Shown piece by piece: positions 14,101 to 64,000 of a stretch of DNA of 64,000 nucleotides. The notes beneath the pieces were generated by a model. It saw only the letters and a program-made list of their open reading frames with translations. It ran no database searches and was not told the origin of the DNA. Numbering within the stretch: the first letter of the stretch is position 1; each line of letters begins with the position of its first letter. A program made the translations under genes and the position numbers. This DNA is from Branchiostoma floridae (taxonomy: Eukaryota; Chordata; Leptocardii; Amphioxiformes; Branchiostomatidae). The stretch covers positions 17,434,532-17,498,531 of the forward strand of contig NC_049990.1 in NCBI RefSeq assembly GCF_000003815.2. The letters are read 5' to 3'.

Positions 14101-17100
14101 AAAGAAAAAACAATATATTGCAATCCCATACTATGTATGGATTGCAATATAAATAGGCAAAGCTAATTTGTATCAAATGTATTTTACACAGATGTCAACG
14201 AATGTACAGAATCCAACAATGGACGTGGGCCATGCCAGGAAGGATGCAGTAATACACCAGGATCATTCATTTGCTCGTGTGACCAAGGCTACTTCCTCAG
14301 ACCAGACTCCGTGACGTGTGGAAGTAAATAAATTTGTATATTGATCCATTGTAATACCGTATTGTAGTAGCAAAAATGCTAAATATAACCCCCGATATCG
14401 ATTAAGGTCATTATTTGTAAAATAACGTTAATGTATCGGGATTATCCTACTAACAAGGGTCCCAACATTTGTCGGTACAAACAAACATCCACTATGGTAT
14501 GGAATGAAGAGACAACCTTCAAACCTGTACCGGTCATCAAGGGAAGGCGTTATTGTTAATTATCATATAGCCAGGCACAGCAAACCAATCAAAAGGCCCC
14601 GTTTCACGTTGGTTATGACGCCATAACACATAGATTCTGGTCGGGCCGTTGTGTATTGCTCATCTGATTGGTCAGAATGAATCAGTGTCGATGCAAATTC
14701 GGTTCACTCATTCGGTGGTTTTATTTGGTTGTTATAGCAAAGGACCAGGCGTTATGACACCATATACACCTCGGGTGGTTCATTAACCCTTAATTGTTAA
14801 TTGCCCTACGTAATAAATCTTACTGCTGCCCTATTCATTAAAGCCCATATTGGGCTGAAAAATATTTGTTACGCATATCTCCCATTAGTTTCCTCAGATA
14901 CTTTAAAAGAAATTTAAAGGCAATTCCTCGATGATATTCGCGAACAAGCTATATTTTCTTAGACATACGTATTTCAGAAAATATGTTGTGTCTATGTCTA
15001 TGTTGGGTACATACATGTATTTATTGTGATACTGTGTTGTTTCCTGCCTTCAGACTCTATCAGCCGTTTCGCTTTTCAAGATGAAAAGTACATCAGGCAA
15101 CACGACAAAAAGATTATTGACGACCTCGCTACAGCAGCTGACTGTGCTACGGAATGTATGGAGGAAACGGAATTCTACTGTCGATCTTTCGATTGGAAGC
15201 CACGGAAATGGCTACATGAAACAAATAAATGCTTTCTAAGCATAGAGAACAGTGGCACAATCGCGTCGCTTGAAAGTGGGGCTCGTTTCGAGTACTACGA
15301 AAGAACATGTAAGTGCAAACATTCCTTGCATGACCAACATTAGAATTAGGAAGAAATTACATAATTGACAAAAATTGTGAACGATAAGTTGAATATATTA
15401 TTTACGTTTTCCGAAATTGCTCAGGAAATATTTGCTATTCAAGATGCCTGATGCTTATAACAATTTCATTTAAATGCTCCATAGACATTGTTTCTATCCA
15501 TGTTTATTATTCTTCAAGTTCAACATTAAAGGAATTGTACGAAGGAAGTCAAAAAGGAATGCAAGTGATTTTAAAACAAACTCATTTTTAAAAATCAAAT
15601 GAGGTAAAATTTGGCATGAAGTTAAAGGGACATGTCTTCTTTAAAAGTTCAATATCTCAATTTGTTATCCTCATTATTATATGTATATGTATAACTTTTC
15701 GTTTACTACCTTGTATATCAAACTGACCGCATTTAGCCCCAATGGGGCATGAGTATGCAATAAACTTCATTGTCATCGTCATTATCACATGAACGACTAA
15801 GGTGATTTCAAGTTGACCACAACGTTGACCGTCGGGGCAAAGAGCAGCACAATTAACACTGAGTCATAAATTCCCTAACCAATTTTTAGTTATTGCAGGA
15901 AACTGAATCTCCAGGCGTATGAAACGCATATCTATATAACTCACAAGCTTTTTTCGTTTCTGTGGTAAAGAATGGTATAGGCCACGTATTCTGCCTCTAA
16001 TACGACACCTCACTTAACCTTAGTAACTGTAAATGAGGAACTTATTGGGGCTCAGAAATCAAAATTGGAATCCAACCTTTAGATGGAAATATCTATTTTT
16101 CTTGTGATTTCGGCTTCTTACAGTAACTTTAAGTTTGTCAGATATAGAGGAACTGCTCTTTCAGACTTCAAAAGGTGTCACATTTCAGTCTGAAGAATAC
16201 ATGTGCCTTTGTGCCAAATTCAATCGTAAGCGATTAAAGAATGAGTTTGTAACAAACCACTTGCATTACATTTTTACTTCCCCCGTCGAGAAGTGATTAA
16301 ATGACACATGTCTTTTCTTATTATATGATGCAGCCAAGTGTATAGGCTGGCAATCTGAATATAGAAGAAAGAAAGAAGATAATTTTTTGTACCACATATC
16401 GCCTTTATCTAGATATGAAAAATACACATATGGATGGCAAATAATTTATTGTATAATCTTGTAAATGGAGTCTTATGTTTTAACAGCTACAACAGACCCA
16501 AGGAAGTTTACTCAGCAGTTCAAAAAAGCCCCGAGTGCGTTCTACGATCATTTTCATACTGGCTACACGGAGGCCCAGTGTGAAGCCGGTTGCCTCAACG
16601 TCAACGACTTCATCTGCCTGTCCTTTACGTATGGAGTTGCAAACACAAAGTGGGGACGGAGACACAGATGCTACCTCAGCCCGTACGATTCAACCAATCT
16701 ACCTAGTGGACAGAGCATAGTGGACAACGACGATTTCGACTATTTTGAAGTTAAAAGTATGTGTTTAATGCAAATGTTACCTTTTCCAGGTCATAGATGA
16801 TGGCTATGATGATGTATCAAATACTTGGACTAAACAGTTAAGCTTTCAGGATTTGCAGCAAGTCCCGCAGTAACCAAGGTTTCGTATTTTTTGCGGACGA
16901 TGCGGGATGTTGTGGGAGACTCTACAAGATTTGGTGTGGGGCGAGGCGCGGGACGCTGCGAGATATTAAACGTGCAGTCTAGTTTTTTTTTGCGTGACGC
17001 GTGTGGAATTACGATGGTATTCCGCCCCGCAAGGCAGAGAAATCGTCTGAATTTGTCTGAATTCTAAATAAACTACAGTATTGTGATACATGCTAAAAAA

Positions 17101-20100: not shown

Positions 20101-23100
20101 TACATAACGGCATGATCACACCACAGTCCGTGTGTGAGACATCATCACAGCTACCGATTAACACAACATGTTCGTATCAGTGCTCATCTGGATATGAGCT
20201 TGAAGGACAGAGCGATCGCTTTTGTCAGCTGGGTGGAATTTGGAATGACAACACACAGCCGATCTGCAAAGGTAAGTGAACTAACAGAATCGGAAGACAG
20301 ATACGGAAAGACTTGGCACAGAGAAGTGTAATCTTATCTATATATTTGTACTAATCCAAAAGATAAATATAGTGATCTGACAAGGGAACATACATCGTTT
20401 AATCTGTTTTTGTTGCGCTTTGGTATCAAATGAGCACAAATTCAGTACTGAGCAAGTCGGATGAGCTGACTTAAACTGTAGGCGACGGGATAGAGTCCAT
20501 ATATCAATAATTGTCTCAGTATACTATTGAAAGTTAAGCCACCCATATTATTAAGAGTTTTGAAATTATAGAAGTGACCTTCTATGCACTCTTATATTAG
20601 CCGTGCGATGCGACCCTTTATCAAGACCAACCAATGGTGACATAATCCCGGAGTCCTGCTACAATGGCCAGCCAGAGTACGGTGGTCCAGCATGCATCTT
20701 TACGTGCCACTCCGGTTATATCCTGAACGGAACTCAGATCCTACAATGTACGGAACGAAAACAATGGTCGTCTCCCCAACCATCTTGCGTTCAAGGTATG
20801 TTAAACTTATATCGAGCGCTTCTTACCTAGAATGGCCTTAATTGCAGTGATAAAACAATTGTTAGGTTACTTTTAAAAGCTTTTTTTTTCATAACAGCTG
20901 TTACGATGTGTCCTTTATTTTATTTCGAGGGTACATTTGATGTAGCCCCACTACTTTTGGTGAATGTTAAAAAATGTATACATTTTTGTTTTACTTCCTT
21001 GTCCACAGATCAGGCCCCACCTTACATATCATGCCCTGGCAAAGTCACAGTTGATTTACCAGTCGACACAAACTCCACAATCGTCACAGTTCCTTTCCCT
21101 TCAACTGACGGTTCGAGACTGACACAAAACGTCACACTTGCAAGTGACGGGTCTGCAGAATTTCCTGCTGGACGCACAGTTATCGCCTTTGTGGCTGACA
21201 GCGGAGATGGCACTTCTTCCTCTACATGCACAGTTCAAGTAGACGTACTAGGTAACAGTTTCTTTGCTGAAAAATGGTCATATAACCATTCTGTTGTAAA
21301 ATGTAAGTCCTATGTAATTGAAAGTAAACATCACCTTTGTAGGCTTCTCCCTGCATTTTAAAATATTCTGCCTTACTTTTTTATGTTTTCTCATACATGT
21401 GTGAGTAACTGAAAAACTGAACTGAACTCAACTAAACGTTACTTACAACTTCATTTCAGCTATGTGCTAACCATTCCTTATTATTGAATAACTAGCTCGA
21501 TTGTATTCATCTAAGTTTATAATGAAGAATGCTTCTATCTTGTTCTAGACAAACAGGCACCCGTCGTCACTTCCTGTCCAGCGGACGTTATTGAGATCTT
21601 TACCGAGAGCCGTTACGTCACCTCAGTCATTTGGGATGAGCCGCAATTCTACGACAACGTTGGAGTTACGGAGATATGGAAAGCTAGGGTGAGGCTTAAT
21701 TCGTTTTTTTTTAAAACACGAAGGAAAGTTTTGACTCCAAAAAAAGACTCAAGGGCATATATAAAGCAGTATTATTATTATTAAAGCATATTACGCACAT
21801 TCACGGCAACTATATTGCTGTATCTTCATGTTACAATAACTAACATTTCTATCACATGTTTTCATTTGTCACCTACAGCAACCAGGTGGAACCCTGACGT
21901 GGGGGCTGTACAATGTAAGGTACACAGGTTGGGACGCGGCCGGCAATTCAGCCGATTGCAGCTTTGTTCTTCATATCCAGCGTGAGTAAAATAATAGTAT
22001 GTATGATGTAGATTTTATGATGTAGATATCACACGTTCACCCATTCATAATTACCTTTAGTAATTACCACCATAACAGTGAATACATTTTCTGTAGATAA
22101 TTCTGGCCTCTTATGGGGCCTTACCTGTATCAGTCTAGAGCAAAGTACCTTATACGTTTTAGAAGTTGTAAAGTTTAGAACAAAATGCAGCATTGCAGAT
22201 ACAGAAACCAGAAACTCTGCAATATTTGGGCTGTCCCTGGTGTAGACCATGCTATCGAATTGAGAGGACAACGAATAAATATTCATTCATTTTCGTCCTT
22301 CTAGCAAAAACGTGTGGAGTTCCAGTCGGCCCCCGCAACGGGAACGCAAACTGTGTGTCTTGGCTCTATGGTCTGTTCTGCCAGCCGACATGCAACGCTG
22401 GACTAATCTTCTTCGAGGATCCTGCCATAACCTATGCCTGTGGGGCTCAGGCTGAATGGAACCCGTCAAGATACATTCCCGATTGTGTTGGTAGGTTAAA
22501 TCTTTGCATTTTACTGTGCAATATATCCACTAAAATCTAGCTATATATACACCTACATCAATCTTTCATTCAATGTCTTCCAAACCCAATGCATCTTCAA
22601 TCACTAATGTGTCTAAGCTTATTTTTTGGTGGCAGAAATTAAATGTAGATTGTACTTATTGCCCTGTATGTAATCGATACCAAACCACGTCATGCAATAT
22701 ATTAAAATCCTACAGAAAGATATTTATATACTATATCATTCAGGTCACGTGCTGAAAAATGGCGATGACCCTTGCCCACCTGGAACCATTGACAGGCTAC
22801 AAGGCTCGGTACAACACTGCGGTAAGTATTTTTAATATTTACAAGTGCTTAACGAACTAGTGAGCACATAAGCACGACGTGCTCTCAAGAAAGACAGCAT
22901 CTAGTTGCTACAAGGTAAATTTGCAATGTTTCATTTACTATTTACTAAATGTTTAACACGTAACCTCTGTATTTTAAGGCCACACCGGTATTTTTAAGAC
23001 TTGAATAATTACATTTGCCTATTTCACACAGCGAACTGTCCTCTTGGTACACGAGAGGTCAACGGTGATTGCGTGAGTTGTGATGTCGGCTCCTATCAAA

Positions 23101-38937: not shown

Positions 38938-39690
38938 AGACATCACGAAATCGCCGGCAAGCGCAGCCAGGCTTGCGGGGGTCTGTCGGGGTCGATGCCC
39001 GATCGCGCCGTCCATGTGTACGCTACATCACCACGATGTACGCGTCGATAACGTCATGATATTGTCGGCAAGCGCAGCCAGGGATACGGGGGCCTGTCGG
39101 GGCCCGTGCCCGATCGCGCCGTCCATGTGTACGCTACATCATCACGATGTACGCGTCGACAACGTCATGATATTGTCGGCAAGCGCAGCCAGGGATACGG
39201 GGGGCTGTCGGGGCCCGTGCCCGATCGCGCCGTCCATGTGTACGCTGCATCATCACGATATACGCGTCGACAACGTCATGATATTGTCGGCAAGCGCAGC
39301 CAGGGATACGGGGGCCTGTCGGGGCCCGTGCCCGATCGCGCCATCCATGTGTACGCTGCATCATCACGATGTACGCGTCGATAACGTCACGAAATTGTCG
39401 GGAAGCGCAGCCAGGGATACGGGGGCCTGTCGGGGCCCGTGCCCCATCGCGCCATCCATGTGTACGCTGCATCATCACGATGTACGTGTCGATAACGTCA
39501 CGAAATTGTTGGGAAGCGCAGCCAGGGATACGGGGGCCTGTCGGGGCCCGTGCCCGATCGCGCCGTCCATGTGTACGCTGCATCATCACGAAATGCGCGT
39601 CGATAACGTCACGAAATTGTCGGCAAGCGCAGCCAGGGATGCGGGGCCCATCAAGGTGCATGCCCGATCGCGCAGTACATGTGAAAGGCG
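38938..39690. repeat. Satellite 1: 111-bp tandem repeat, about 6.5 copies
   Basis: Units marked by ggcaagcgcagccaggga recur at 111-base spacing (39068, 39179, 39290, 39401 and on). GC-rich, unlike the flanks. Because 111 is a multiple of three, several frames stay open on both strands (39014-39778 plus, 39134-39661 minus). These look like by-products, not genes. Confidence 0.85.
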
Positions 39691-39769
39691 CATCATCGTG
39701 TATAAGATGTTGTGCATGGCCGTTCCTACTGGTGTATTACACTATACATATGGTCTAAAATGCCCTGTA

Positions 39770-42480
39770 GTATTGTAGCAGGTCTTGCCGCTACAAGGGT
39801 ATCGGGGCATGCCACTGCTCGTGTGCGGGATGACCTGGGCTTTCCGCCGTAGAAGATATTGTGGTTGATCGTTACGACTGGTGTGACATTGTACGGATGG
39901 TCTTAAATGCCCTGTAGTATTGTAGTATTGTAGTAGATCTTGCCGCTGTGAGGCTAGCGGGGTACACCGCTGCTCACGTACGGGGCGACCAGGCCTTTCA
40001 TGCCGTAAAAGATATTGAGATTGACAGTTTCTATTGATGTATTACATTATACGTATGGTCTAAAATGCCCTGTAGTAGTGTAGTATTGTAGTAGGTCTTG
40101 CCGCTACGAGGGTAACGGGGCACGCCACTGCTGGTGTACGGGACGACCTGGCCTTTCAGCCGTAGAAGATATTGTGGTTGGTCGTTTCGACTGGTGTGAC
40201 ATTATACGGAAGGACTAAAATGCCCTGCAGTAGTGTAGTATTGTAGTAGGTCTTGCCGCTACGAGGGTATAGGGGCATGCCACTTCTCGTGTACGGGACG
40301 ACCTGGGCTTTCAGCCGTAGAAGATATTGTGGTTGATCGTTTCGACTGGTGTGACATTATACGTATGGTCTAAAATGCCCTGTAGTAGTGTAGTATTGTA
40401 GTAGATCTTGCCGCTACGAGGGTAACGGGGGCACGTCACTGCTGGTGTACGGGACTACCTGGCCTTTCAGCCGTGGAAGATATTGTGGTTGGCCGTTTCG
40501 ACTGGTGTGACATTATACGGAAGGACTAAAATGCCCTGTNNNNNNNNNNNNNNNNNNNNNNNNNNNNNNNNNNNNNNNNNNNNNNNNNNNNNNNNNNNNN
40601 NNNNNNNNNNNNNNNNNNNNNNNNNNNNNNNNNNNNNNNNNNNNNNNNNNNNNNNNNNNNNNNNNNNNNNNNNNNNNNNNNNNNNNNNNNNNNNNNNNNN
40701 NNNNNNNNNNNNNNNNNNNNNNNNNNNNNNNNNNNNNNNNNNNNNNNNNNNNNNNNNNNNNNNNNNNNNNNNNNNNNNNNNNNNNNNNNNNNNNNNNNNN
40801 NNNNNNNNNNNNNNNNNNNNNNNNNNNNNNNNNNNNNNNNNNAATTGCCCCGTAGTAGTGTAGTATTGTAGTAGTTCTGGCCGCTACGAGGGTAGCGGGG
40901 CATGTCACTTCTCGTGTACGGGACGACCGGGGCATTCAGCCGTAAAAGATATTGTGGTTGGCCGTTTCGACTGGTGTGACATTATACGGAAGGACTAAAA
41001 TGCCCTGTAGTAGTGTAGTATTGTAGTAGATCTTGCCGCTTCGAGGGTAGCGGGGCATGTCACTTCTCGTGTACGGGACGACCTGGGCTTTCAGCCGTAA
41101 AAGATATTGTGGTTGGCCGTTTCGACAGGTGTGACATTATACGGAAGGACTAAAATGCCCTGTAGTATTGTAGTATTTTAGTAGGTCTTGCCGCTACGAG
41201 GGTAGCGGGGCATGTCACTTCTCGTGTACGGGACGACCTGGGCTTTCAGCCGTAAAAGATATTGTGGTTGGCCGTTTCGACTGGTGTGACATTATACGGA
41301 AGGACTAAAATGCCCTGTAGTAGTGTAGTATTGTAGTAGTTCTTGTCGCTTCGAGGGTTGCGGGGCATGTCACTTCTCGTGTACGGGACGACCTGGGCTT
41401 TCAGCCGTAGAAGATATTGTGGTTGGCCGTTTCGACTGGTGTGACATTATACGGAAGGACTAAAATGCCCTGTAGTAGTGTAGTATTGTAGTAGGTCTTG
41501 CCGCTACGAGGGTAGCGGGGCATGTCACTTCTCGTGTACGGGACGACCTGGGCTTTCAGCCGTAGAAGATATTGTGGTTGGCCGTTTCGACTGGTGTTAC
41601 ATTGTACGGAAGGACTAAAATGCCCTGTAGTATTGTAGTATTGTAGTAGGTCTTGTCGCTACGAGGGTAGCGGGGCATGTCACTTCTCGTGTACGGGACG
41701 ACCTGGGCTTTCAGCCGTAAAAGATATTGTGGTTGGCCGTTTCGACTGGTGTGACATTATATGGAAAGCTAAAATGCCCTGTAGTATTGTAGTAGATCTT
41801 GCCGCTTCGAGGGTAGCGGGGCATGTCATGTCACTTCTCGTGTACGGGACGACCTGGGCTTTCAGCCGTAAAAGATATTGTGGTTGGCCGTTTCGACTGG
41901 TGTGACATTATACGGAAGGACTAAAATGCCCTGTAGTATTGTAGTAGGTCTTGTCGCTACGAGGGTAGCGGGGCATGTCACTTCTCGTGTACGGGACGAC
42001 CTGGGCTTTCAGCCGTAGAAGATATTGTGGTTGGCCGTTTCGACTGGTGTGACATTATACGGAAGGACTAAAATGCCCTGTAGTAGTGTAGTATTGTAGT
42101 TGGTCTTGCCGCTACGAGGGTAGCGGGGCATGTCACTTCTCGTGTACTATTACGCCAGTACTATTCACATACGGGACGACCTCGCCTCTCTGCCGTAAAA
42201 GATATCGTGTTTGGCCTGTCGGACTGGTTGGATGCCATTATACGGATGGTGCGAATTGTCCTGTCGTATTGTAGTATTGTAGTACATGAAGTAGGTTGTT
42301 GCCGTTGTAAGGCTAACGGGGCACACCACTGCTTACATACGGGGCGACCAAGCCTTTCATCGCGGCCGTAAAAGATATCGGGTTGACCGTTCGGACTCGT
42401 GTATTACGTTATACAAAATGCCTGAAATGCCCTGTAGTAGTGTAGTATTGTAGGTCTTGCCGCTACAAGGGTTACGCGGG
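39770..42480. repeat. Satellite 2: about 155-bp tandem repeat, interrupted by a gap
   Basis: Units marked by aaaatgccctgtagta recur at 152-155 bases (40997, 41152, 41307, 41462, 41617, 41771, 41923), about 17 copies counting the gap. Inside each unit gtagtattgtagta is itself a short repeat that varies in number. The edges (39770-40070 and 42180-42480) are more diverged than the centre, as expected for homogenised satellites. Confidence 0.88.
40540..40842. other. Assembly gap, 303 N
   Basis: Runs of N inside satellite 2. Copy number across it is unknown; open frames drawn through it are artefacts. Confidence 1.
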
Positions 42481-44927: not shown

Positions 44928-45882
44928 NNNNNNNNNNNNNNNNNNNNNNNNNNNNNNNNNNNNNNNNNNNNNNNNNNNNNNNNNNNNNNNNNNNNNNNNN
45001 NNNNNNNNNNNNNNNNNNNNNNNNNNNNNNNNNNNNNNNNNNNNNNNNNNNNNNNNNNNNNNNNNNNNNNNNNNNNNNNNNNNNNNNNNNNNNNNNNNNN
45101 NNNNNNNNNNNNNNNNNNNNNNNNNNNNNNNNNNNNNNNNNNNNNNNNNNNNNNNNNNNNNNNNNNNNNNNNNNNNNNNNNNNNNNNNNNNNNNNNNNNN
45201 NNNNNNNNNNNNNNNNNNNNNNNNNNNNNNNNNNNNNNNNNNNNNNNNNNNNNNNNNNNNNNNNNNNNNNNNNNNNNNNNNNNNNNNNNNNNNNNNNNNN
45301 NNNNNNNNNNNNNNNNNNNNNNNNNNNNNNNNNNNNNNNNNNNNNNNNNNNNNNNNNNNNNNNNNNNNNNNNNNNNNNNNNNNNNNNNNNNNNNNNNNNN
45401 NNNNNNNNNNNNNNNNNNNNNNNNNNNNNNNNNNNNNNNNNNNNNNNNNNNNNNNNNNNNNNNNNNNNNNNNNNNNNNNNNNNNNNNNNNNNNNNNNNNN
45501 NNNNNNNNNNNNNNNNNNNNNNNNNNNNNNNNNNNNNNNNNNNNNNNNNNNNNNNNNNNNNNNNNNNNNNNNNNNNNNNNNNNNNNNNNNNNNNNNNNNN
45601 NNNNNNNNNNNNNNNNNNNNNNNNNNNNNNNNNNNNNNNNNNNNNNNNNNNNNNNNNNNNNNNNNNNNNNNNNNNNNNNNNNNNNNNNNNNNNNNNNNNN
45701 NNNNNNNNNNNNNNNNNNNNNNNNNNNNNNNNNNNNNNNNNNNNNNNNNNNNNNNNNNNNNNNNNNNNNNNNNNNNNNNNNNNNNNNNNNNNNNNNNNNN
45801 NNNNNNNNNNNNNNNNNNNNNNNNNNNNNNNNNNNNNNNNNNNNNNNNNNNNNNNNNNNNNNNNNNNNNNNNNNNNNNNNNN
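44928..45882. other. Assembly gap, 955 N
   Basis: N run flanked by repeats. It may hide missing exons of gene B or more repeats. Long open frames through it are artefacts. Confidence 1.
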
Positions 45883-46459: not shown

Positions 46460-47209
46460 GTAAGTGAGCACTTATATATTGTACTCTTTCTATACGTCGG
46501 GAGTCCGATATAGTGCAGCCATGCCATACTATGCCGGCGTACTCAAGAAGTGGACAAATATTTAGGACTTATAGATAACTTCGAGTACATGTTGTGGCAA
46601 TTTGAATTTAAGTTTGTTCAGTGTGGTCACTCGTTTTGATACTTTGGCAATCATGTGTGTGATATGTTTTTCCAAAGACATAGTGAAGGTCTTCCTGACA
46701 CCTACCCACATCATCGTAATCCATCAAGAGGTTCTTGAGTTATGCTGACCACTGATATCCGGACATATGCACTGACAGACACACGCACAGACAGACACAC
46801 CCAAAACTATATCTCCATTTTTCATGGCGATGATTATGCTTAGAATATGGTTTAAATTGCATCTGTAGCTCCATTTGTCGGTATCGTAAACGTGAACTAG
46901 CAGTTTTTATTTCTTTGGTATCTTCTACCCCATACAAAAAATGTTATATCGGCGATCGATCGATACGATAGATCCTTTAGTGCATCGCATTGTTCTTTGA
47001 GCCTCTAACAAAAAAATCGGGAAATCGTACACATGATAGTGCTGCAATGGCATTTGTACCACACCTTTAACATACTGATCAAGGATAATTTTGGTGGTGA
47101 ATGTGACTGACAAGTATGATGAAGTTAAATTCATGGATTTGGTTTGTAGATTCAGTCGATATTGAGCGTAACAAAATACACTTTTACGGCGTAATAGAAT
47201 ATCTCCAAA
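46460..47209. other. Intron of the X-Y candidate or intergenic DNA
   Basis: AT-rich with an acagacacacgcacagacag stretch near 46770. No recognised gene on either strand. Confidence 0.4.
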
Positions 47210-47819
47210 CCAGTAGAGTGAAAAAAAGAGCCAAAAATATACATTTTTATTTTAAAAATGGCTCTAAAACCCCCAAATAGCCAGTTTTGAAGTAATCTAA
47301 GGAGAATGTGTCCATGGGGTATTTCAATGCACCTCTGTACCAAATTTCAGGTCATTCGGTTTCCATATAAGGGCAATGAGCCAACAATATACATTTTAGT
47401 CGAAAATGGCCCAAACCACCCAAATAACTAATTTTTTAAGTATGAAGAAAGTGTTGATGGTTTCCTAATCCTATGCTCATATGTCCAATGCACCTCTGTG
47501 CCAAATTTCAGGTTATTAGGTTTTAATATGTACCTGAATGTACTGAATGTACCTGGGGGCGGAGGGGCCCAAAATATACATATTTGGTCTATTCAAAAAA
47601 AGGACCAAAAAGCCTAAATATCATAATTTAGTAGGCATCTATCAATAAAGTAAACAAAAGTCTGGGGGTATTTGCTATCCCTACCTCCATAAAGGCCCCA
47701 AAATGAAAAAGTTGAATCAAATTGAACAGGATTGATTTAACAGGAGCAGGAGAAGAGAGAGAGCAAAAACAATATTGAAAATCCATACTGATATACTACA
47801 GTAGTATGGATTGCAATAT
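47210..47819. repeat. Partial copy of the 11.7-14.2 kb tandem-repeat element
   Basis: Same caaatttcaggtcattcgg, atatacatttt and ctatccctacctccat blocks, ending in tggattgcaatat as the 14150 end does. The left end is truncated. Confidence 0.7.
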
Positions 47820-47857
47820 GACAATATATTTCACCGTACCTAACGTTATAGACGTAG

Positions 47858-48062
47858 AAAACACCAGACGGGGAATGCCCCAATGACAACAGGGAAATAT
47901 ACGACGGGGAAAGCTCCAAGATGACGGGGCAAGCTCCAAGACGACGGGGAAAAAGAGTGGGGAATTTGCTCCAGGACGACGGGGAAACCCCCCAAAAAAA
48001 ATCTGAAGGGGAAACGTCTTTGCGGGGAAACCTCATGGAGCCAATTGCAGACCCCATTTGCC
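47858..48062 (-). repeat. ttccccgtc-rich block, right arm of an inverted pair
   Basis: In reverse orientation it reads aggtttccccgcaaagacg and then successive ttccccgtcgtc and ggagctttcccc motifs, matching 45995-46200. The two arms enclose candidate exon X and the 47.2-47.8 kb repeat. Confidence 0.7.
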
Positions 48063-53525: not shown

Positions 53526-53596
53526 TCATCCCAAAGTTTTTGTTTTCTTCTTTTTCTTCTTTTTCTTTGCTTGAGTGTTGTCATTGTTCACAGCTC
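53526..53596 (-). CDS. Gene C exon 6: lysine-rich C-terminus and stop
   Basis: Acceptor cactacag, phase 1 in. AVNNDNTQAKKKKKKKKTKT, Leu, Gly and TGA. The basic run is a likely nuclear-localisation or DNA-contact segment. Confidence 0.7.
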
Positions 53597-56500
53597 CTGT
53601 AGTGCAAAGTATCAAACAATTAATAAGACTTCAACAGTTCATAAAACGTACTAGCTTAGTTTGTTTGTACATGTATATGGCTTGGCAATAGGATATCATC
53701 CTGCCTATGCGATTTGTTATGTAGGATGTCATTATAATTTATATTCAGCACAAGAGATACAACAAAGGTACATGTGTAAGTTCTAGTTTTCTACTGCATT
53801 ATAATTCAATTGAGTTGCTAGAGGACCCAACATTGTGTTGCAGCCTGGAATATACCCCTGGCCATACATGTAGCAGGGCTCGAAATGGTTTGTTTTGCAT
53901 ACATGCACTCAGGTGCAGGTAACATTGGAAATTACCTGCATCAGACAAATTTTACCTACACCACTCTGAATTTAGGAAGTATGGATCATACTAAAATTGT
54001 TCAGGAACTATTGCTATTTTTTTCTTTTTTACTCTATAAGTAGTAATAGTCAATGCAGCTAATAACTATCCACATGCACCTACATCATAGGACATTTATG
54101 TATAAAACCTAGTACATGTACATGGACCAGTGCAGGTTAGGTGCAGGTAGGTATCCGAAATACCTGCACAGCTCCAATTTTACCTGCACTAACCTGCATA
54201 TGCAGGTGGTATTTCGAGCCCTGATGTACATGTTGTAGCATACCCTGGGGGTATATTCTGGCCGAGTTTAACCACCAGACCAGCATATAGTTATATCCTT
54301 ATCTGAACTATGTTTCAAGGCAATGTTATTTTGCTAGTAACATGCATCATGTTATAATTTTAGTCTAAACATGCATTAGCTATAGACTCCATTTAATCAC
54401 AATACCAATTTATCAGTGAAATGTTTACAATTTTCTGGCATTGTTAATATCTAAAACAGGTTAGTTGTGTTCTATTTGTAAGTGATACTTATAATAGACA
54501 TCACATAACCTCCCTATTCCATTGTGACACAAATTTGAAACATTTTGCTGAATAATGACAATGGATGAACCCAGCCTTACTCACTCTGTGAGTCTTCAAA
54601 GGCAGTGATGAGTCTGCGGTCATAGATGTTCTGCACTGGTTCCCATGTACTGAAAATTCAGGAAAATATATTTAAGTCTATCACATTTCTATCAAAGTTT
54701 GGGGAATTTCAGCAAATGCAGGCCTCACAATGAGGGCCTGGCTACCACTAAGCCACTCACAGTCCACCAGCTTTACTGGTGCTTGACAAAAACAACATTC
54801 AAATGTATGAACAATACAATGGTTTTGGGGAAGAATGAAGTCCTAAACACTTTGAATGTTGGTTGATGCCCCTAGAATTCGCATTTGTGACTTTCTTACT
54901 AAGAATCTTCCGGGCTTAAGTAAGAGATACATGCTACATGTAGTGGCAAGCTTATTTTTATATTTGTCTGAAAACTCACTTCATTAGTGGTTCCCACAGT
55001 TATAATTAATGCAGAATTCCAATTCGCAATATAAAAAAATCTTTATTGTTTAACCTGTGACTTGCCATTGTGAAGTAGATTTAGTAAGATGTCAGTTATA
55101 CATCTATCATGGTCTAAAGTAAATGTCACTTTAGAAAATGTGGATGAAAATGTCACAGTAGTATAACATATTTGGTAAACACATTGATCTGAGTTACATC
55201 ATTTTACCACAATATGATGACATGAATGATCAAAATGAATTAAAGCAATGTTAGATCACAGTAAACATACCAGCTATCACTGCTGCTCCACTTCACCAAA
55301 TACTGCATGCTACCCTGAGGTGAAAAGAGATAATTTCCATCTTTATTTATTTATTTATTCATCTTAGAAAATTGGGTAGTCGTTTCAGTCAAGCACAGAC
55401 TGAAAGGAGCCCACAAAACAAATGAATAACAATGTTATCAATAAATACAAAAGAATGATAAACAACTATAATAGTCAGCTTACACATCATTCTAATTAAG
55501 GGTTAATGATCCGCCCCGAGGTGTATATACTAGTACATGTAGCAAAGAACCAGGCGTTATGACACCATGTACACCGCGGAACAGGCGGGTCATTAATGTT
55601 ATTATCATATAGCCCACCCAAACTTGCAAACTCCTGTATGACGCATAGATCCCTTGGTATAATATGTGTGAATTCCTTTGTCGAATTTCTGAAAGTTCAC
55701 GTTTGTTCCGTTGGTACATACATTTGCAAGGGGATTACAGATTGCAGTTTGAAACCTTAAAGTTGTTTTGTATGTTCAGTAGCAGTTCCCAAATCAAACT
55801 TACTAGTAATGTTGCATTTTCAAGCATTTTGAGATGGCCACATACATATTGGTTAAGCATGTTATTTTCAGTAATGAAATTACTGCACTTACATTTTTCA
55901 ACTGCTGGTCTACCACCTTTTCTGCACTGTAGATTCCAGGTTCCCAAGTGTTAGCTGCAATCATAAACAAGGGTAGAATGTAATTAATAATATGAGAAAT
56001 TCAAGTTCTTTGGCAGTGGTCCTAAGCTGATGTGGAACTAAAATGTGTACTACTCAGAACCAAAACAAGTGCTTTAAAAAAGCTGGCATTTTGCCAAGGT
56101 TTGCGTGTGTACACGTTTTTTTTTCTAGTTATTGGAATGTGCTGAAACTATTGTTTATATTAAATGGATGTAAAAAGGAAACAAGAACAATTTAAAATCA
56201 CCCTCCCCTGGACTCGATCCCGGACCGTAGCTCTGCAAATCAGGCTGACGTCAGAGGTATTTGTGTAGTGACCCCTGAACCCGGAAGTCACTTCTCTGCA
56301 TCTTAGCGCACTTTTCAGAAAATGATATCTCAGCAATCGTATACCCCTGCTTTAACATTTTTACATTGTCACGGTCTCCATAGTACATACTACAAATCTG
56401 GTAAGTTAGAAGGTCCAGTTCTTTTTCGATAATACAGGGCGATCAATGAAAAATCGTGGCAATTTCCATTTTCGCACTGGAAATCCTACTAATGTCATAG

Positions 56501-59500
56501 GGTTTCCAGTCGAAATTGTTTTGTACCCAGGGGAATCAGAACATTTGTGTTCCCTAATAGAGGGTGTTGATTTATGAAAAATAAAAGTTACAGAACAAAA
56601 ATCGGACCTTCCGTTCCAGAGATATGGCCCTTTAAATTTGCTGGGCGGTGTCCGCAGGTGTGGCGCCAGGTGTGAAAATCGCATTTCTAATTAGCAATAA
56701 TTAAGAAAGTAAAAACATTGTGCCACTCAAAAGTTCTTTTCTGCACAGTCCAAGTAGTATTTTGTAGCAATCAAGTAAAGATAAGATGTTTATTTGCCTT
56801 TTTCTTTCACTACAGGTGAGGTCAACCTGCTGAAAATTAAGTTTTTTCAGCATGGCACATGCACAGCTGGAAAAGTGGCCAATTATTTCCAGATGACCCC
56901 TTTTTGAAGAGCGATAATCAATAAACTGTTCATCCTATAACTAAGATATTTCAGATATTGGAAATATGTAGTAGATTCTCTTAACACAGTTTATTGCAGA
57001 CATTCTAGAGACATGGTTACGAGATTATGTGTAATCAAAAATACTAATTTGTAACATAGCTCAAAAGGTCAAAGGTCATCGGCACCTGTCACTTATATAA
57101 GTCCACATAAAAAATTACCTATCAACATTCTTCTCTATCTCAGTGACAAGTATCACATGTTTAATATAACAGAATAGAAATAGTTTAGATAATTTCCACA
57201 TCAATTATGCAAATTAGCTTCTGATTTGCATAATTAATATTTAATTACATGAAGCATCACTTAATCTATCTACATACCAATAATCATGATGATCCGTCAA
57301 CCCCTTCTTGAGTTATTCCCTTTCACAGTCTGACCATAAGCATTGAATATCAGCATACCTTACTACTAAAGGGTTTTGGCTAATTCTAAATTTGCCATCA
57401 AAACTATCACATTTCACCAGGAAATACTACTTTTACGACATCTAATGACCAAAAGTATATAAAAATATTACCTATGAACCATGACCACCTGACTTTGTAA
57501 CTGGTTTATTCAAGTTTATTGAACAATTGATAATTCTTTGACATTACAACATATGTTTGAAAAGACTTGGTAGCTCCTCTTCTAAGCTGCACAGCTTTGA
57601 ATGGTTGATACATTGTAATTCTCCCTCTGTGCCATCTCAATTTCTTCTATGATGTTCCAGGTGCTATTCCCAATGCAGCATCTTGCAAATCTGAAAACTT
57701 TTAACATTGGAAATATCAGCAAAAACCTCTATGCCCTTGATATCACATTCAACAACAAACACAACTTGCTATGTTATTGATTTTTTGGATCTTACAAGGT
57801 AAAAATTGAACTTCAGTGGTGATCATCTCAACGTAAATATGCTCACGTTGGACACATTTACAAATGATGTTTCCTTTCATGAAGTTGGTGACAAAGAAAA
57901 CAAAAGTTTTGCGTCTCAAACCTGAAACAAACGTGTCCGAACATACAATGTATCTACACTTATAAAGGCTATCTGTATACAATTAATGAATATCAATACG
58001 CTAATTATTTACATGGAAACGAGAATATTTTGATAATTATGGACCCGCCTAACTAAATTTATATGCAGGGTCCTACGGCCGTAACTCACGGCCCGGACTC
58101 GGCACACCACACGGAGCGAGTAGCACATGTTGAACATTCACATCGCTAACTCACAACAAACCTACACATGTTATACATCATTTTAAAGCTTAGAAACCGC
58201 TTGTTACACACATGGATGCAACTTTTTGAAAAAATAAGACATCAATGGTGAAAAATGCCATCTAAATTTGCAAACTGGAGGTAAACCACCTTAAAATTGC
58301 GGTACAAGAAAGTTTCACGTACCAAATTGTAGCTTGTTTTCTTGTCTATCCAATCCTACCATATATCGGTTGCTTCCAAATAAGGCTGAGATGCAAATCA
58401 GGCTGACGCAACGCCATGCCCGCAGAGCTCTCGAACAGGTAAACGCGGAAGTGACTTTCCCGTCTCGCGAGGCATTTTCCCGAAGGCCATATCTCAACAA
58501 TCTTTTATCCCCTGCTTAAAATTTTTACATTGCCAGGGCCTCCATACTACATAGTACAATTCTGGTAAGTTTGAAGTTCTAGGCCTTTCTCAATTTTACA
58601 CGGCGATCAATCGAAAATCGCTACACGCACGGAAAACACCACCGCCGCACGCATGAATATTAACTAAGTCGCAAAGGAATCTGGGACAGGCTATATGTAA
58701 CTGTTATATATATATATACACGATTTATTTGGAAAACATTTCATCTTTATGAATTGGTAATACAACGTTAAAATGTAAGAGCAATAATTTGATTATATGC
58801 TGCATCAATCTTAGGAATATCATACTTCATTTATTTAATCTAATCAAATATCAGGCCCCATTACGGACCACAGACAATGACTCACGACAGAGCTTTTAAG
58901 TTGTATACAAATGCATTGCAGATTTTGAACAGGTCCGTTCATCTCAACATCACAACATCACTCCATCACTCCATCACAACGGCAACTATTCTGGTCTCAG
59001 GGCATTTTGCCGCTAAGGCGGCAAAATGCAAAAAGTCCAAGAGCACTTACCATCCATTGTTGTTTCTCGTGCTGTTAAGGCCCTTGGTCTCCTACTCCCT
59101 CGATATCCTGTGGAAAATTGATAACATGGATTTATGTGAAAAGTTTCTTCTTACAACTAGTAGACATTGTTAATTAAAAGAGATATAGTCCATGTAAGGT
59201 CAAAGCAAGTAAATTTCAGAAAAAATATGTTTTTGTTCTTCATGGATGGTCATATAGACCGAGATGGGTAAATAGGTTGCGTTGTAAGGTAATAATTGTA
59301 TGTAGAAGTAGTGACACTAGAGTCGTAGCCTTGACCGTAGTTGCAGAAGTGAAACTTGCTGGATAGCAGAGTAACACCAATATGGAAGCCATGATTTGAT
59401 TTGATGCCAGTCTACCACACTAGGGTCACGTTTACTACACTAGTGCACTTCTTGAATACAAGAATAAGTGACTTGTTAGCTGTGGTGCCATATTTTGTCA

Positions 59501-62500
59501 CTTAACTCTTGTTACAACGTTTATGGTGTCTACTTTTAAAATTTGGCAGCTCTATTTTTTTTACCCATCTTGTTTTTTGTTATGCTTTCATGTTTGCAGT
59601 CTGAATAGGGTGTCATCCATTGAATTTTCTTGCTGTGTCCTTATTAATACAAGCCAGGTCTTGGAAAACAATGATATGGTTTATAATCAAAAATGATAAT
59701 CTTTTCTCACAGTAAGATCAGTCAGGCATCAGGCAAGTAATGGAAGCAAAATTCCTAGTTGAAACTGTAGCACTCAAAAAAAAAAGGCCCAGTGTGATTC
59801 AAATGTAATAATACATGTACACAATGGGTAACATCAACTCGTGTCAGTTAGTGAGTTACACACAGTGATGGCTGCTGTTCATATTTTTGCTTCTAAGAAT
59901 ACATGTACCTCAGTAATGATAACTGCAAGTTAACATTGCATACCTTTTTTATTCAGTCCCATTGCAGACTTTGCGTACTTGTCTCGCCTTGCTAGAGTTT
60001 TCTGCCTTCTCTTGATGTGTTCTTCAGTGAACCTTTTCTTCAAGTAGGCAGAACTTTCTGGCGACTTATTGAGCTGGATCAAATGGAAGTCATCCTTTTT
60101 GGAAAAGGCTTTGAAACTGTGTCCTTTTTTTTGCATGTACTCCCTACTACGTACTGGCTTGCTGTCCATCCATTCCTGGGATCTTTGCCGTTTGGCCCTT
60201 CTTGCTGTGGCACCCTTCAGCTGACTTCCTTTGTTCTTTGTACTCCTATGTCCATAACTGTTTATGCAACCTTTGCATCTGCACAAGATGCCACATGGTT
60301 TTTGCTGTTTTGCACATGGACACCGGCTCTTGTATTGGGATTCAGCTTCTTCATTGCATCGTTTTTGAGGTGTTTTGTCGTTGACCCCACAGCTGCATGT
60401 ACATGTAGATGACTTTGGTGAAGGTGGTGTAGTGGATGGAGCAATGGGTTTTGACTTAACGGATATTCTGGCAGTGGAGTCAAAATGCATCCTGTCTCTG
60501 TCAAATGCAAGATATATACATGCCCTTTTGTCAAGCACATTTGACGGGAAAACTGGAATGAGGGGTACGTCTGTGTCTGTAGTTACGAGAATCATTGCAA
60601 TATTCAGCACATTTGACACAGCTAGAACCATTAAATCCCCCATGTCCCCTGCAAACACATCTCGTCTCAGGTACTGCAAGGCTTCGGTCTGAAAGTTCAC
60701 ATTTGGCGCAAACTCTCTGTAGACCTCCTCATTGTTACGCCATTCGTCCACCATTGCAGCTCGCAGCCGCACTGCCAATGTTTCCTGGTCAATATTGCAT
60801 GGCTCCCCAGCACAGAATAAGTCTGGGAATAATGTTGAGAGGTGTTCAGAAATCTTTGTTCCTATATCTTCATCTGTGAGGAGCTGAATCAGCTGGAAAC
60901 TTATGGACATAAACAAACAGCTGCCATCTGCATTTGAGGGCACACGCATAAGTCCATGGGATTTCAAGTTTTCATCAAGATGATCATGACCTTCTTCACT
61001 GATTTCATCACTAAGTTGCAATATGTGTTGTAGCAGTTCTATTCCCTTGTCACATGCTAAAGTGGGGTCAATGGAAACTGCAGACTTCTTCAGCAACTTC
61101 CATACTGCTAATTTACATTCAATATTCTCCTTATTCTGTGTTTCATCAGCATCCATGGATTCATCATTTGTTATGATGGCATCTTGCGACTGAAGTCCAA
61201 ATTCTTCTATGGTGTCTACATGGTGTGGCTTCCTTTTGTATGACCTGGCAAGTTGACTGTTAACTGTGTAGATAATGGAAAACATGAGAGCGATAGCAAA
61301 TGTTGGGCTGATTCGGTTTTTGTTCATTCTTTGGTTTAATTTACGATGAAGTGCTTCGTTTCGAATTGTCCCTTTGCCTGGCTGGATACCTGAAACACAT
61401 CCCTTCTCTATGTGTTTTAATAGCTTTCGTACTTCATCCTGTGCAGCTTTTGGATACACAGTTTTCCCTTTTTGCTTCAATCCAAACTTGCGCCATTTCT
61501 TGTCAAATTTTTTCATTTTGCGTGCTACACGGTGAGGAGGGGGGGTTTCCCTTTGCCTTTCAAGTCCAATATCCCCAGAATGTCTGAACACCATTCTCAA
61601 GTCCCGCAGGAGATATTTAGAATATGGATGATGCTTTGGAACAAACTTAGTAACTCTTTGTACTGCATGGAATAAATCCAATTTCACCAAAATGTTCTCT
61701 CCAAAAACTTCCTCGATGAGTTTTCTCCATGCACAGCATTGATCAAGGAATACCTCCTTTAACACAACGTTCTGTTTTGAGAATCTGTCCCTGAGTCTCT
61801 CCAAGACAGGTCGGATCTCTTTGAAAGTGGTTGACTTACAGAGCTGCCAAGTCAACACCTGTCCAATGTCATTTGTTACAGTACACAGTGCCTTTAGTTG
61901 AGTTAAATATCTGCCGTTCATATGCACCTTTATGTGCTTCACACTTTTGAAAGTGTGGTCTATGCTTATCCAGTCTGAAGTAGTGGTAGCTTTTACTGCA
62001 TCCTCCAAACTATTCTTCTTCTCATTATAAATGCATTCAAAACACCTTCTTATCATTAGTCTCCCTGGAACGCTTGTCATGATCTCCTTGAAATATTCTA
62101 CTTCACCATTCTTGAACATTTGTCCTTCAGGATGTTGACTGATCAGTTCTGAGATTCCTTGGAAGTATGTATTTCTGCAAGCATTGAGCAGTCTGACACA
62201 TTCACTTACTTCCATTCCTGCTGAAATCATTTCATATAGCTCATATGCCAGACTGCGTTCAAACCCTACCTTGTGTGACAAGATAAAAGGCACTGCTGCT
62301 CTTGGCATGAAGTCTAGGACATACTGAGAATGGCTGAAAAATCGATGGGAATGTGGACATCTCAAGATGCGACTTACAAGCAGTATGTTGCTGCTTTTTC
62401 CATGAAGTACCATTGGCTGTCTATAGTCACTTTGACCATCCAAAAAATTCGACACTTTCAACGGTTCATCACACAGAGGACATTTTATTCCCTCTGGAAA

Positions 62501-62695
62501 CAGCCAAGACATTTGTGTGAGAGGGTCCCAGATCAGGACCTGAGGTGACAGGATGTCACTCACTGACTTGGATCCTTGGGTCTTTGCAGCTTCCACCTTC
62601 TTTGCTATTTCATTCTGGAGCCTTTCATTAATCCTGACAGCACATGCATTGAGTAGAAGAAGGAAGACCACGAGAATACTGGAGAAAATCTTCAT
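53526..62695 (-). CDS. Gene C: transposase-like, OTU, CXC and chromodomain protein (6-exon model)
   Basis: Exons 59944-62695, 59051-59107, 55893-55954, 55271-55314, 54585-54649 and 53526-53596 join with matching phases (1,1,0,2,1) to 3,051 bases, 1,016 residues and a stop. Rough residues: signal-like N-terminus 1-20; zinc-ribbon-like CPLC/CPHSH 72-117; DDE-type core with Asp246, Asp318 (FLDQCCAWR), Asp340 (LDLFH) and Glu447 (RNEALH); OTU 585-745 with ADGSC Cys593 and His737; CXC cluster 792-810; chromodomain 945-993; lysine run and stop. Transposases cut and move DNA, OTU domains cleave ubiquitin chains, and chromodomains read methyl-lysine. The combined role is unknown. Alternatives: the big exon is a transposon ending at its own stop (59930-59932), and the small exons are a separate chromodomain gene starting at the ATG in exon 2. 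Confidence 0.55.
53874..54223. mobile_element. hAT-like MITE in gene C intron 5
   Basis: Begins cagggctcgaaat and ends atttcgagccctg. Repeated acctgca/tgcaggt motifs line both arms. The 48283-48320 sequence (cagggctcaaaataccacct) matches one end, a second, truncated copy. Flanks share tacatg-like sequence but no clean target duplication. Confidence 0.75.
54585..54649 (-). CDS. Gene C exon 5: chromodomain end
   Basis: Acceptor attttcag, donor gtgagt, phase 2 in and 1 out. TWEPVQNIYDRRLITAFEDS is the TWEP and helix part of a chromodomain. Confidence 0.8.
55271..55314 (-). CDS. Gene C exon 4: chromodomain centre
   Basis: Acceptor cacctcag, donor gtatgt, phase 0 in and 2 out. GSMQYLVKWSSSDS carries the hallmark YLVKW. 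The third cage aromatic, normally three residues after Trp966, is Ser969. Confidence 0.78.
55497..55610. repeat. Dispersed repeat in gene C intron 3
   Basis: Shares accaggcgttatgacaccat and the gaggtgtata / attaagggttaat blocks with 14560-14805 in gene A. Uncharacterised family. Confidence 0.5.
55893..55954 (-). CDS. Gene C exon 3: chromodomain start
   Basis: Acceptor gattgcag, donor gtaagt, phase 1 in and 0 out. ANTWEPGIYSAEKVVDQQLK: YSAEKVVDQQ is the first strand of a chromodomain. The preceding NTWEP looks like the end of another chromodomain. Confidence 0.75.
56210..56220 (-). promoter_or_regulatory. tRNA B-box-like site, possible SINE or tRNA relic
   Basis: In reverse orientation ggatcgagtcc fits the Pol III B box with one change, with gc-rich pairing sequence around it. 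No full tRNA fold is evident. It lies at the edge of the 56.2/58.4 kb direct repeat. Confidence 0.3.
56230..56460. repeat. Direct repeat, copy 1, in gene C intron 2
   Basis: caaatcaggctgacg, ggaagtgact, atatctca.caatc, cctgctt.aa, acatttttacattg and ggcgatcaat blocks recur in the same order at 58393-58622. Confidence 0.65.
58393..58622. repeat. Direct repeat, copy 2, in gene C intron 2
   Basis: Second copy of the 56230-56460 unit, same orientation, about 2.16 kb away. Open frames on both strands here (58315-58519) are chance. Confidence 0.65.
59051..59107 (-). CDS. Gene C exon 2: basic linker
   Basis: Acceptor ttttccacag, donor gtaagt, phase 1-1, 19 codons (YRGSRRPRALTARETTMD). It contains aacaATGg, a strong start context, so it could instead be the first coding exon of a separate gene of about 84 codons. 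Confidence 0.55.
59108..59943 (-). other. Gap between gene C exons 1 and 2
   Basis: 836 bases without an exon-like frame: intron 1 in the fused model, or promoter DNA of a separate chromodomain gene in the alternative. Confidence 0.4.
59944..62695 (-). CDS. Gene C exon 1: DDE transposase-like, OTU and CXC regions
   Basis: 917 uninterrupted codons from an ATG with A at -3; the open frame extends upstream to 62773 without another ATG. The core shows DWISIDHTF, VFLDQCCAWR, VKLDLFHAVQRV and GTIRNEALHRKLNQRM, the acidic residues spaced as in a DDE/RNase H-fold transposase; I cannot name the superfamily. Next come an OTU-like cysteine protease region (NADGSCLFMSIS; DRMHFDST) and a CPCAKQQKPCGILCRC CXC-type cluster, then a basic tail. 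No frame damage, so it is young or under selection. Donor aaaaag/gtatgc in phase 1; without splicing the protein ends GMQC. Confidence 0.85.
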
Positions 62696-62773
62696 TGTGC
62701 CTTGGCTTGCTTGGTGTACTAGATTGTTTGGGAACCTGTGGGTGAAATTATGTAGTCTGTTAACAGAGTGCAA

Positions 62774-64000
62774 AATACAGGGAGAATTTTACCTCTCACA
62801 TCATGTCCCTTGCTAGCAGCTGGAAAAAAGGCTAGGGTCTTCATTCTCTTTGCTACAAAATCACAATATAAATGTGATATGCTGCCAAATGAGCGTTCCT
62901 TTAGCAATTAGATGATTACATTGTAACATTTAATTTCCTAATGCCACTTTAAAATAGAAATAAAAAAACTGTATTCAGAGCTAAGTAATTTGGTACTCTC
63001 CAACATATGATTCAGTATTACTGTTGGTAAAGTACTACTTGTATTATAATCAGGTTTGGGTGCAGACCTGGACCTGAACTTGACCTGAACTTGACCTGGT
63101 AGTGAATTTTCTGTACTGGTAGAGAGCCTAGATAACTTCTGGCTCTCTCTGAAATGTCACTCTGCCCATCATAAGTTGTTCTGGCTCACTCCGGCCAAAC
63201 CCTCATACCACTATTATTGCTTTATCACTGACATTATAGATATTATGGCATAAAATGGACAGTATCCAGGAGTCCATTGACCTTTCACAGATCAATGCCA
63301 TTGTGTGGACATACAAGGGTACACCACTAATCACAGTACCCTACCGGTACACTATATAGTACATGTACCCATGACTCAGAAACATTACTTGATCATCTAC
63401 ATGTAACATCTCTCTAACATGCCAGAACAAAAGAACATAGATGTACATTAAAGAACTAACCATACCTTTGAACAGATATTAAAGCCAGTTATAACCTTGG
63501 TCACTAAGATAACAGGTCAAGGTCAAAGTCAAGGTCAATAAGTGTCAAACTTGAGCACTGCAGGCACACCAGACAACAATAAGACTTAAGAGACCTCATA
63601 CTTCCATGAAACATTTAGAGATTTTTAAAGAATGATTATTCAAATTTCTTATTCAATTATTTGAATTCTACATAAATCCATGCATGGTAATTTTCATGTT
63701 AACATTAGCCAGACATAATTATCTTTGCCAAGAAGATTGTGTTTTCTGTTACATGGGTCTGTATGTAGCTCAACAGCATATAAGTCGAGAAATTGTAAAT
63801 GGATCTTTTTTTTTTTTACTTTTGGTATTTGTGTAGCTGTTGTGGAAAGGCATGCCTATTTCGAAATTGGTTTATCTGGAGTTTTCTACAGTACAGCAGC
63901 GAACTTGTTTTTTTTTCGGTTTGTTTTGGACAGCATAAGTCAAAATGCAGCTGGGGACTTTCACAATATTAGGTAGGTGTGTAGTGGTTGTGGAAAGGAT
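62774..64000. other. Upstream of gene C, no gene recognised
   Basis: A donor-like agag/gtaaaa near 62793 (minus) and an acceptor-like cccacag near 62734 could bound a small 5' UTR intron. A ggacctgaacttgacctg stretch at 63068-63120 repeats 51505-51550. The open frame at 63725-63976 shows no domain. Confidence 0.35.

Follow-up and report, generated by a model that had tools for sequence, protein, structure and literature searches.

Organization of the locus

The DNA analyzed here is a 64,000-nucleotide stretch of the Branchiostoma floridae genome (contig NC_049990.1, positions 17,434,532 to 17,498,531; hereafter the window), in which a long open reading frame (ORF) for a transposase-like protein is followed by five short exons encoding a chromodomain. 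The two parts may belong to a single gene. All coordinates refer to the window, and features lie on the minus strand unless stated otherwise. From stop to stop the ORF spans 952 codons (59930-62788), with its first ATG at 62695; from this ATG to the stop at 59930 there are 921 codons, and 917 whole codons precede a splice donor at 59944. Read as exon 1 of a spliced gene (59944..62695), it comprises a DDE-like core, an OTU-like domain, and a CXC cluster; unspliced, it ends at the stop at 59930. Exon 2 (59051..59107, 57 nt) holds an ATG in a strong Kozak context (59057-59055). The chromodomain starts in exon 3 (55893..55954, 62 nt), has its core, with the third cage aromatic missing, in exon 4 (55271..55314, 44 nt), and ends in exon 5 (54585..54649, 65 nt); exon 6 (53526..53596, 71 nt) adds a lysine-rich tail and the stop. 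Exons 2-6 have AG/GT borders and, when joined to the ORF at 59944, extend its frame without a break as far as one TGA at 53526, as claimed in the initial annotation, which had described six minus-strand exons keeping frame through five junctions to one stop.

The spliced peptide matched PF00385 above the cut-off (40.9 bits versus 25.1, E = 1.9 × 10−10), confirming the chromodomain proposed earlier. Among PDB sequences, 49 matched it at or below E = 0.001 (best 5.1 × 10−10), the closest being CBX6, CBX8, and Polycomb. In alignments with CBX6 and CBX8, the first aromatic residue (Y) and the W of VKW are kept, the W of KGW is missing, and a loop is two residues shorter. At the positions that we take to form the aromatic cage of a methyl-lysine-reading chromodomain, two of the three residues are thus present. 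Because the third aromatic is missing, binding of methylated lysine appears doubtful from the sequence, and the earlier description of the domain as a methyl-lysine reader is weakened.

Domains of the long exon

An OTU active site combines a catalytic Asp-Gly-x-Cys motif with a late His. Residues of this type are present in the ORF, with D590 and C593 in DGSC and H737 and D739 in MHFD, so that the intact 917-codon exon with Cys593 and His737 reported in the initial annotation was found again. The putative OTU-like cysteine protease spans 60479..60934 (Pfam OTU stretch 60554-60934) and is followed at 60260..60403 by a cluster of ten cysteines resembling the CXC domain of MSL2. Here, the residues and cysteines on which the earlier OTU and CXC assignments had been based hold, whereas profile support stays below threshold. 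Of all parts of the ORF, the OTU segment came closest to a profile that suits it. With this segment alone as query, the OTU profile (PF02338) scored 18.6 bits (cut-off 23.3; E = 0.0027), and with the whole ORF 13.8 bits (E = 0.085); Otubain (PF10275) matched the segment at E = 0.061, and the MSL2-CXC profile (PF16682) matched the cysteine cluster with 12.8 bits against a cut-off of 26.7 (E = 0.13).

The DDE-like pattern (61355..61960) was assigned by eye and consists of D246 (61958-61960), D318 (61742-61744), D340-x2-H343 (61667-61678), and E447 (61355-61357). Nothing in Pfam or NCBIfam, and no transposase family, matched the core segment above the cut-off. In Pfam it came closest to unrelated families, none of which reached the cut-off: SPL (E = 0.0085), IL34 (E = 0.024), cyanate lyase (E = 0.075), and Med16 (E = 0.25). 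As unrelated families reach such values, E-values near that of the OTU match are not strong evidence. The sole NCBIfam match of the core segment was the ISLre2 transposase, which lies over D318-H343 and is far below threshold (12.1 bits, E = 0.085); the whole ORF as query gave no NCBIfam match. Since no family matched above the cut-off, the DDE transposase label is to be taken as a reading of the motif by eye and not as a database result. Single-sequence AlphaFold2 models had low confidence for the OTU segment (residues 538-760; predicted local distance difference test score, pLDDT, 38.5) and for the core segment (residues 39-500; pLDDT 37.8). Foldseek listed 77 matches to the OTU model, all of them weaker than E = 0.001. 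Neither an OTU fold nor an RNase H-like core is claimed from these models.

Relatives were sought with six 8-residue patterns, the reach of which is close relatives; 2 viral-contig and 12 genome-contig stretches were retrieved, none of them a relative by tblastn. Two degenerate motif scans of viral contigs gave no match, and tblastn returned nothing at E = 0.1 from plasmids and one chance-level match (E = 0.2) from phages.

The start of the gene is doubtful. Translated from ATG 62695, the first stretch (62634..62695, MKIFSSILVVFLLLLNACA) resembles a signal peptide, but an intron may instead terminate here, in which case 62633 would be the first base of exon 1. The DNA at 62636-62690 is 71% pyrimidine and ends in TGTCAG, and the acceptor at 62633 ranks in the best 6.3% of minus-strand AGs, with higher scores nearby at 62735, 62812, and 62819. 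A signal peptide would be hard to explain on a transposase-like protein, and we tentatively prefer the simpler reading of an intron end; exon 1 may then not start at ATG 62695, as had been annotated. A brute-force search of the window for a phase-2 first exon matching this acceptor gave short, unconvincing candidates only. Upstream of the ORF the DNA is CpG-poor to about 63.75 kb, and a promoter may therefore lie further up.

Evidence for a possible splice junction between exons 1 and 2

Splice sites were scored with generic weights. On this scale the donor at the end of exon 1 (AAG/GTATG, 59939..59946), 12 nt before the ORF stop, scored 4.17; it ranks within the top 0.7% of the 3823 GTs on the minus strand, and no donor between the ORF end and 60400 scores higher. 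When all 340 minus-strand ORFs of at least 40 codons were considered, including this one, an equally good donor was found within 30 nt of the ORF end for 6, within 60 nt for 10, within 150 nt for 25, and within 300 nt for 37. The donor ends exon 1 in phase 1, the phase needed by exon 2 (a 1-in-3 chance); the other donors in the ORF scoring at least 2.5 (62378, 62270, and 62210) would all leave phase 0, which exon 2 could not continue.

Exon 2 looks like an internal exon. In the 64 kb, it is the sole minus-strand pair of acceptor and donor, 30-300 nt apart, that reaches its own scores and is open in phase 1-1, with one such pair on the plus strand, at thresholds chosen after exon 2 was seen; looser thresholds gave 2 pairs on the minus and 11 on the plus strand. 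Being unique at its scores, the pair suggests that something upstream probably splices into exon 2. What is seen directly comprises the open frame with its catalytic-type residues, the exon borders and their matching phase, and the significant chromodomain. That one gene runs across 59944-59107 we consider, from these sequence features, about an even bet.

CpG content and the search for signs of mobility

In invertebrates with mosaic methylation, 5-methylcytosine occurs mostly in active gene bodies, and promoters are hypomethylated in the annelids studied (PMC11292947); methylated CpGs are lost through mutation (PMC8857923). CpG observed/expected ratios (o/e) were at or below 0.43 in 14 of the 16 one-kb bins between 48 and 64 kb, all but those at 56 kb (0.59) and 58 kb (1.04), whereas the median over the whole window is 0.66. 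The ratio of the ORF (0.33) resembles that of its flanks (upstream 0.17; 58.75-59.93 kb 0.40), unlike that of the patch at 58 kb, and between the ORF and exon 2 there is no CpG-normal, promoter-like gap directly upstream of exon 2. Within the ORF (59933-62635), observed over expected CpG counts were 22/40.9 for CGN (0.54), 6/37.5 for NCG (0.16), and 13/52.5 for C|G (0.25), a codon-phase pattern that departs from uniform decay (p = 0.006). CpGs are retained most often in arginine (CGN) codons, which points to an old loss of CpGs that was restrained by constraint on the protein.

The CpG-normal patch (57950..58750, no strand assigned; o/e 1.14) lies in intron 2 and contains a dispersed repeat copy at 58489-58620. 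It is probably a younger insertion and possibly a promoter; the former is suggested by the repeat copy, as in the cnidarians studied repeats within introns have a higher CpG content than the DNA around them (PMC8857917). A promoter of the chromodomain gene in the patch was considered and is not favoured: two donors between 55960 and 59930 reach a score of 3.0, and when an open phase-1 ATG was sought within 400 nt of each, that of exon 2 alone had one; moreover, the patch holds a repeat. This repeat copy is 82% identical over 133 columns to another at 56325-56456. At the other edge of the CpG-poor region, the ratio changes in a step at 47000-48000, from about 0.8-1.3 at 42-47 kb to about 0.4 above 48 kb.

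A scan for inverted repeats between 53.0-59.93 and 62.64-64.0 kb (20-mers with at least 16 matches) gave 8 pairs, compared with 15, 17, and 19 in block-shuffled controls. None of the 8 pairs had a target duplication of at least 2 nt, the upstream side being covered over 62640-64000. No second copy of the ORF better than E = 0.84 was found within the window.

One gene or two

The position and phase of donor 59944, the internal look of exon 2, and the CpG history of the region make us lean towards a joined host gene. Our tentative interpretation, held at slightly less than even chance, is a single domesticated gene on the minus strand in which a transposase-like exon is spliced to chromodomain exons. 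Here we infer that the 59944-59107 junction is used in transcripts, that domestication took place, and what the gene would do. The domains, the frame, and the splice anatomy described initially hold, but a strong-Kozak ATG and an AATAAA also allow two genes.

Several observations weigh against the joined gene. Within the ORF, donor 62270 outscores donor 59944 (5.27 versus 4.17), so that a donor score alone is no proof of use. Exon 2 carries the in-frame strong-Kozak ATG at 59057, although chance alone gave such an ATG in 4.3% of random open 57-mers from the minus strand (852 of 20000). CBX proteins start a few residues ahead of the chromodomain, and the position of this ATG fits such a start. 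An AATAAA at 59948..59953, close to the ORF stop, is a possible polyadenylation signal of an unspliced ORF transcript. As to CpG history, the depleted region reaches as far as 48 kb, although a search of 48-53.5 kb for coding domains gave none, and thus does not delimit the gene. Transposons can also be CpG-poor, and transposon lineages can be methylated, young ones most in cnidarians (PMC8857917). One 16-nt inverted pair surrounds the ORF (59776-59791 and 63800-63815, 88%), but it consists mostly of A and T runs and was taken as low complexity; the 5′ end of an element may lie beyond 64 kb.

A less likely arrangement is two separate genes: the ORF would be a transposase gene or element ending at 59930, and translation of a small independent CBX-like chromodomain gene downstream would start at ATG 59057 (MDANTWEPGIYSAEKVV...). 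Exon 2 would then either begin this gene or follow a first exon that is not translated. Besides the Kozak ATG and the AATAAA, the open ATG found for the donor of exon 2 alone speaks for it. Yet the acceptor of exon 2 is good, so that an upstream exon probably exists, and from the ORF end to exon 2 no donor reaches a score of 2.5; the position and phase of donor 59944 would be a coincidence, and no CpG-normal stretch offers a promoter just upstream of exon 2. Neither AATAAA nor ATTAAA occurs at 59929-59108, but as neither was found below exon 6 either (54396 down to 52500), polyadenylation signals are a weak guide. Alternatively, the ORF could be a passenger, a transposon lying in intron 1 of the chromodomain gene and perhaps still mobile; host transcripts would then be spliced from an upstream exon over it to exon 2. 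Good upstream donors exist for this at 63466 (4.42) and 63345 (4.32), the D, D, E, and OTU residues are intact, and animal transposases bearing OTU are known (PMC2836005); but terminal inverted repeats and target-site duplications do not exceed the control over the upstream side covered, and the CpG content of the ORF is like that of its CpG-poor flanks, not like that of a fresh insert, whereas the 58 kb patch does look fresh. We regard the passenger as distinctly unlikely; together with the two-gene arrangement, it takes up most of the probability left by the joined gene. A mis-joined ORF, or small exons that are not real, through chance or faulty assembly, would fit the presence of tandem arrays and stretches of N in other parts of the window. 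With no N at 53.5-64 kb, a chromodomain match built across the exon 3/4 and 4/5 junctions, and a frame open over 952 codons, such an artefact is very improbable.

If the joined gene is real, an old OTU-plus-CXC transposase, no longer freely mobile, would supply one very long exon that splices at 59944 to exon 2, and from there to the Polycomb-type chromodomain and the lysine-rich tail. The gene may also have earlier exons further up, perhaps outside the window. The CXC cluster and the former transposase core might then bind DNA, the chromodomain might place the enzyme on chromatin, and the OTU domain might remove ubiquitin from a chromatin-bound substrate, for which mono-ubiquitin on H2A near Polycomb targets would be the obvious candidate. 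That the protein is a domesticated transposase turned into a one-chain chromatin deubiquitinase, which captured a Polycomb-type chromodomain and opposes ubiquitination by Polycomb repressive complex 1 (PRC1), is a speculation that we consider rather improbable. Were the join true, the locus would be a host-transposase fusion that gained a Polycomb-type chromodomain while retaining a deubiquitinase-like domain and a catalytic core that seems intact, and it would allow one to ask whether transposon-borne OTU domains can become chromatin ubiquitin erasers.

Other features of the window

Tandem arrays of 111-bp and 155-bp units at 38943-42147 are satellite-like and possibly collapsed in the assembly; N runs lie near them (40540-40842 and 44928-45882). 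A 20-bp tandem repeat of 2.6 copies at 47901-47952 is located inside overlapping ORFs on both strands. On the plus strand, ORF 14963-15343 encodes a PAN domain (E = 5.6 × 10−11; CpG o/e 1.05) and ORF 20831-21361 an HYR domain (E = 1.9 × 10−4; CpG o/e 0.57). A further plus-strand ORF (2764-3876, 370 codons) gave a weak zf-RVT match below the cut-off (E = 0.014) and is perhaps a retrotransposon remnant. No Rfam family matched in the window at gathering thresholds.

Comparison with known systems

The closest published likeness to the ORF is Ginger1, in which a DDE-type transposase and a C-terminal OTU cysteine protease occur in one protein, in animals, with a lancelet family listed (PMC2836005). 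According to the same paper, Ginger1 proteins carry a C-terminal OTU or Ulp1 domain, except for the lancelet Ginger1-1_BF, which is without an extra C-terminal domain; some Helitron proteins also have OTU, and a part of transposon-borne OTU in transposition is only a possibility (PMC2836005). Since OTU-bearing transposases are known there, the pairing of DDE and OTU is not new but an already known transposon architecture (PMC2836005). The word chromodomain is absent from the main text of that paper. Ginger1 differs in having a Gypsy-integrase-type core with a zinc finger and a GPY/F motif (PMC2836005). The present ORF instead reads D-72-D-129-E with D-x2-H and has no integrase match in Pfam. 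In Gypsy-integrase-type cores, the spacing between the second D and the E is about 35, compared with 129 here. By its core, as predicted from the motif, the ORF is not a Ginger1.

Other transposon groups were considered and set aside: the main text of the KolobokP paper is without OTU, and OTU did not occur among the papers on KDZ/Zisupton listed by a search of open-licence literature. In the main text of two papers on transposon-derived genes (PMC10027918 and PMC12062965), neither OTU nor chromodomain, written as one word or as two, occurs. In open-licence literature, the combination of OTU, transposase, chromodomain, and amphioxus was not found, that with domesticated instead of amphioxus returned only a lichen metagenome, and no description of a spliced fusion of transposase, OTU, and Polycomb-type chromodomain was found.

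On the host side, the chromodomain is closest in sequence, among solved structures, to the Polycomb-class CBX proteins (CBX6, CBX8, and Pc), from which it differs by the missing third cage aromatic and two missing loop residues; in the present gene model, the 25 lysine-rich residues after the domain leave no room for a C-terminal repressor box like that of CBX proteins. The cysteine cluster shares the core RCPC...C...C.C.GC.N with the MSL2 CXC domain (PF16682; match sub-threshold), whereas Pfam scans of the ORF gave no RING match, in which it differs from MSL2. Transposase capture giving rise to host-transposase fusion genes was reportedly described by Cosby and colleagues in 2021. In such fusions, a transposase exon is spliced to exons of host domains, and the present locus would be alike in this. 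It would differ by keeping a nearly whole transposase-like protein, OTU domain included, and by its host portion, a chromodomain at the C-terminus. A Polycomb-type chromodomain acquired through splicing would make it a new variation on the host-transposase fusion.

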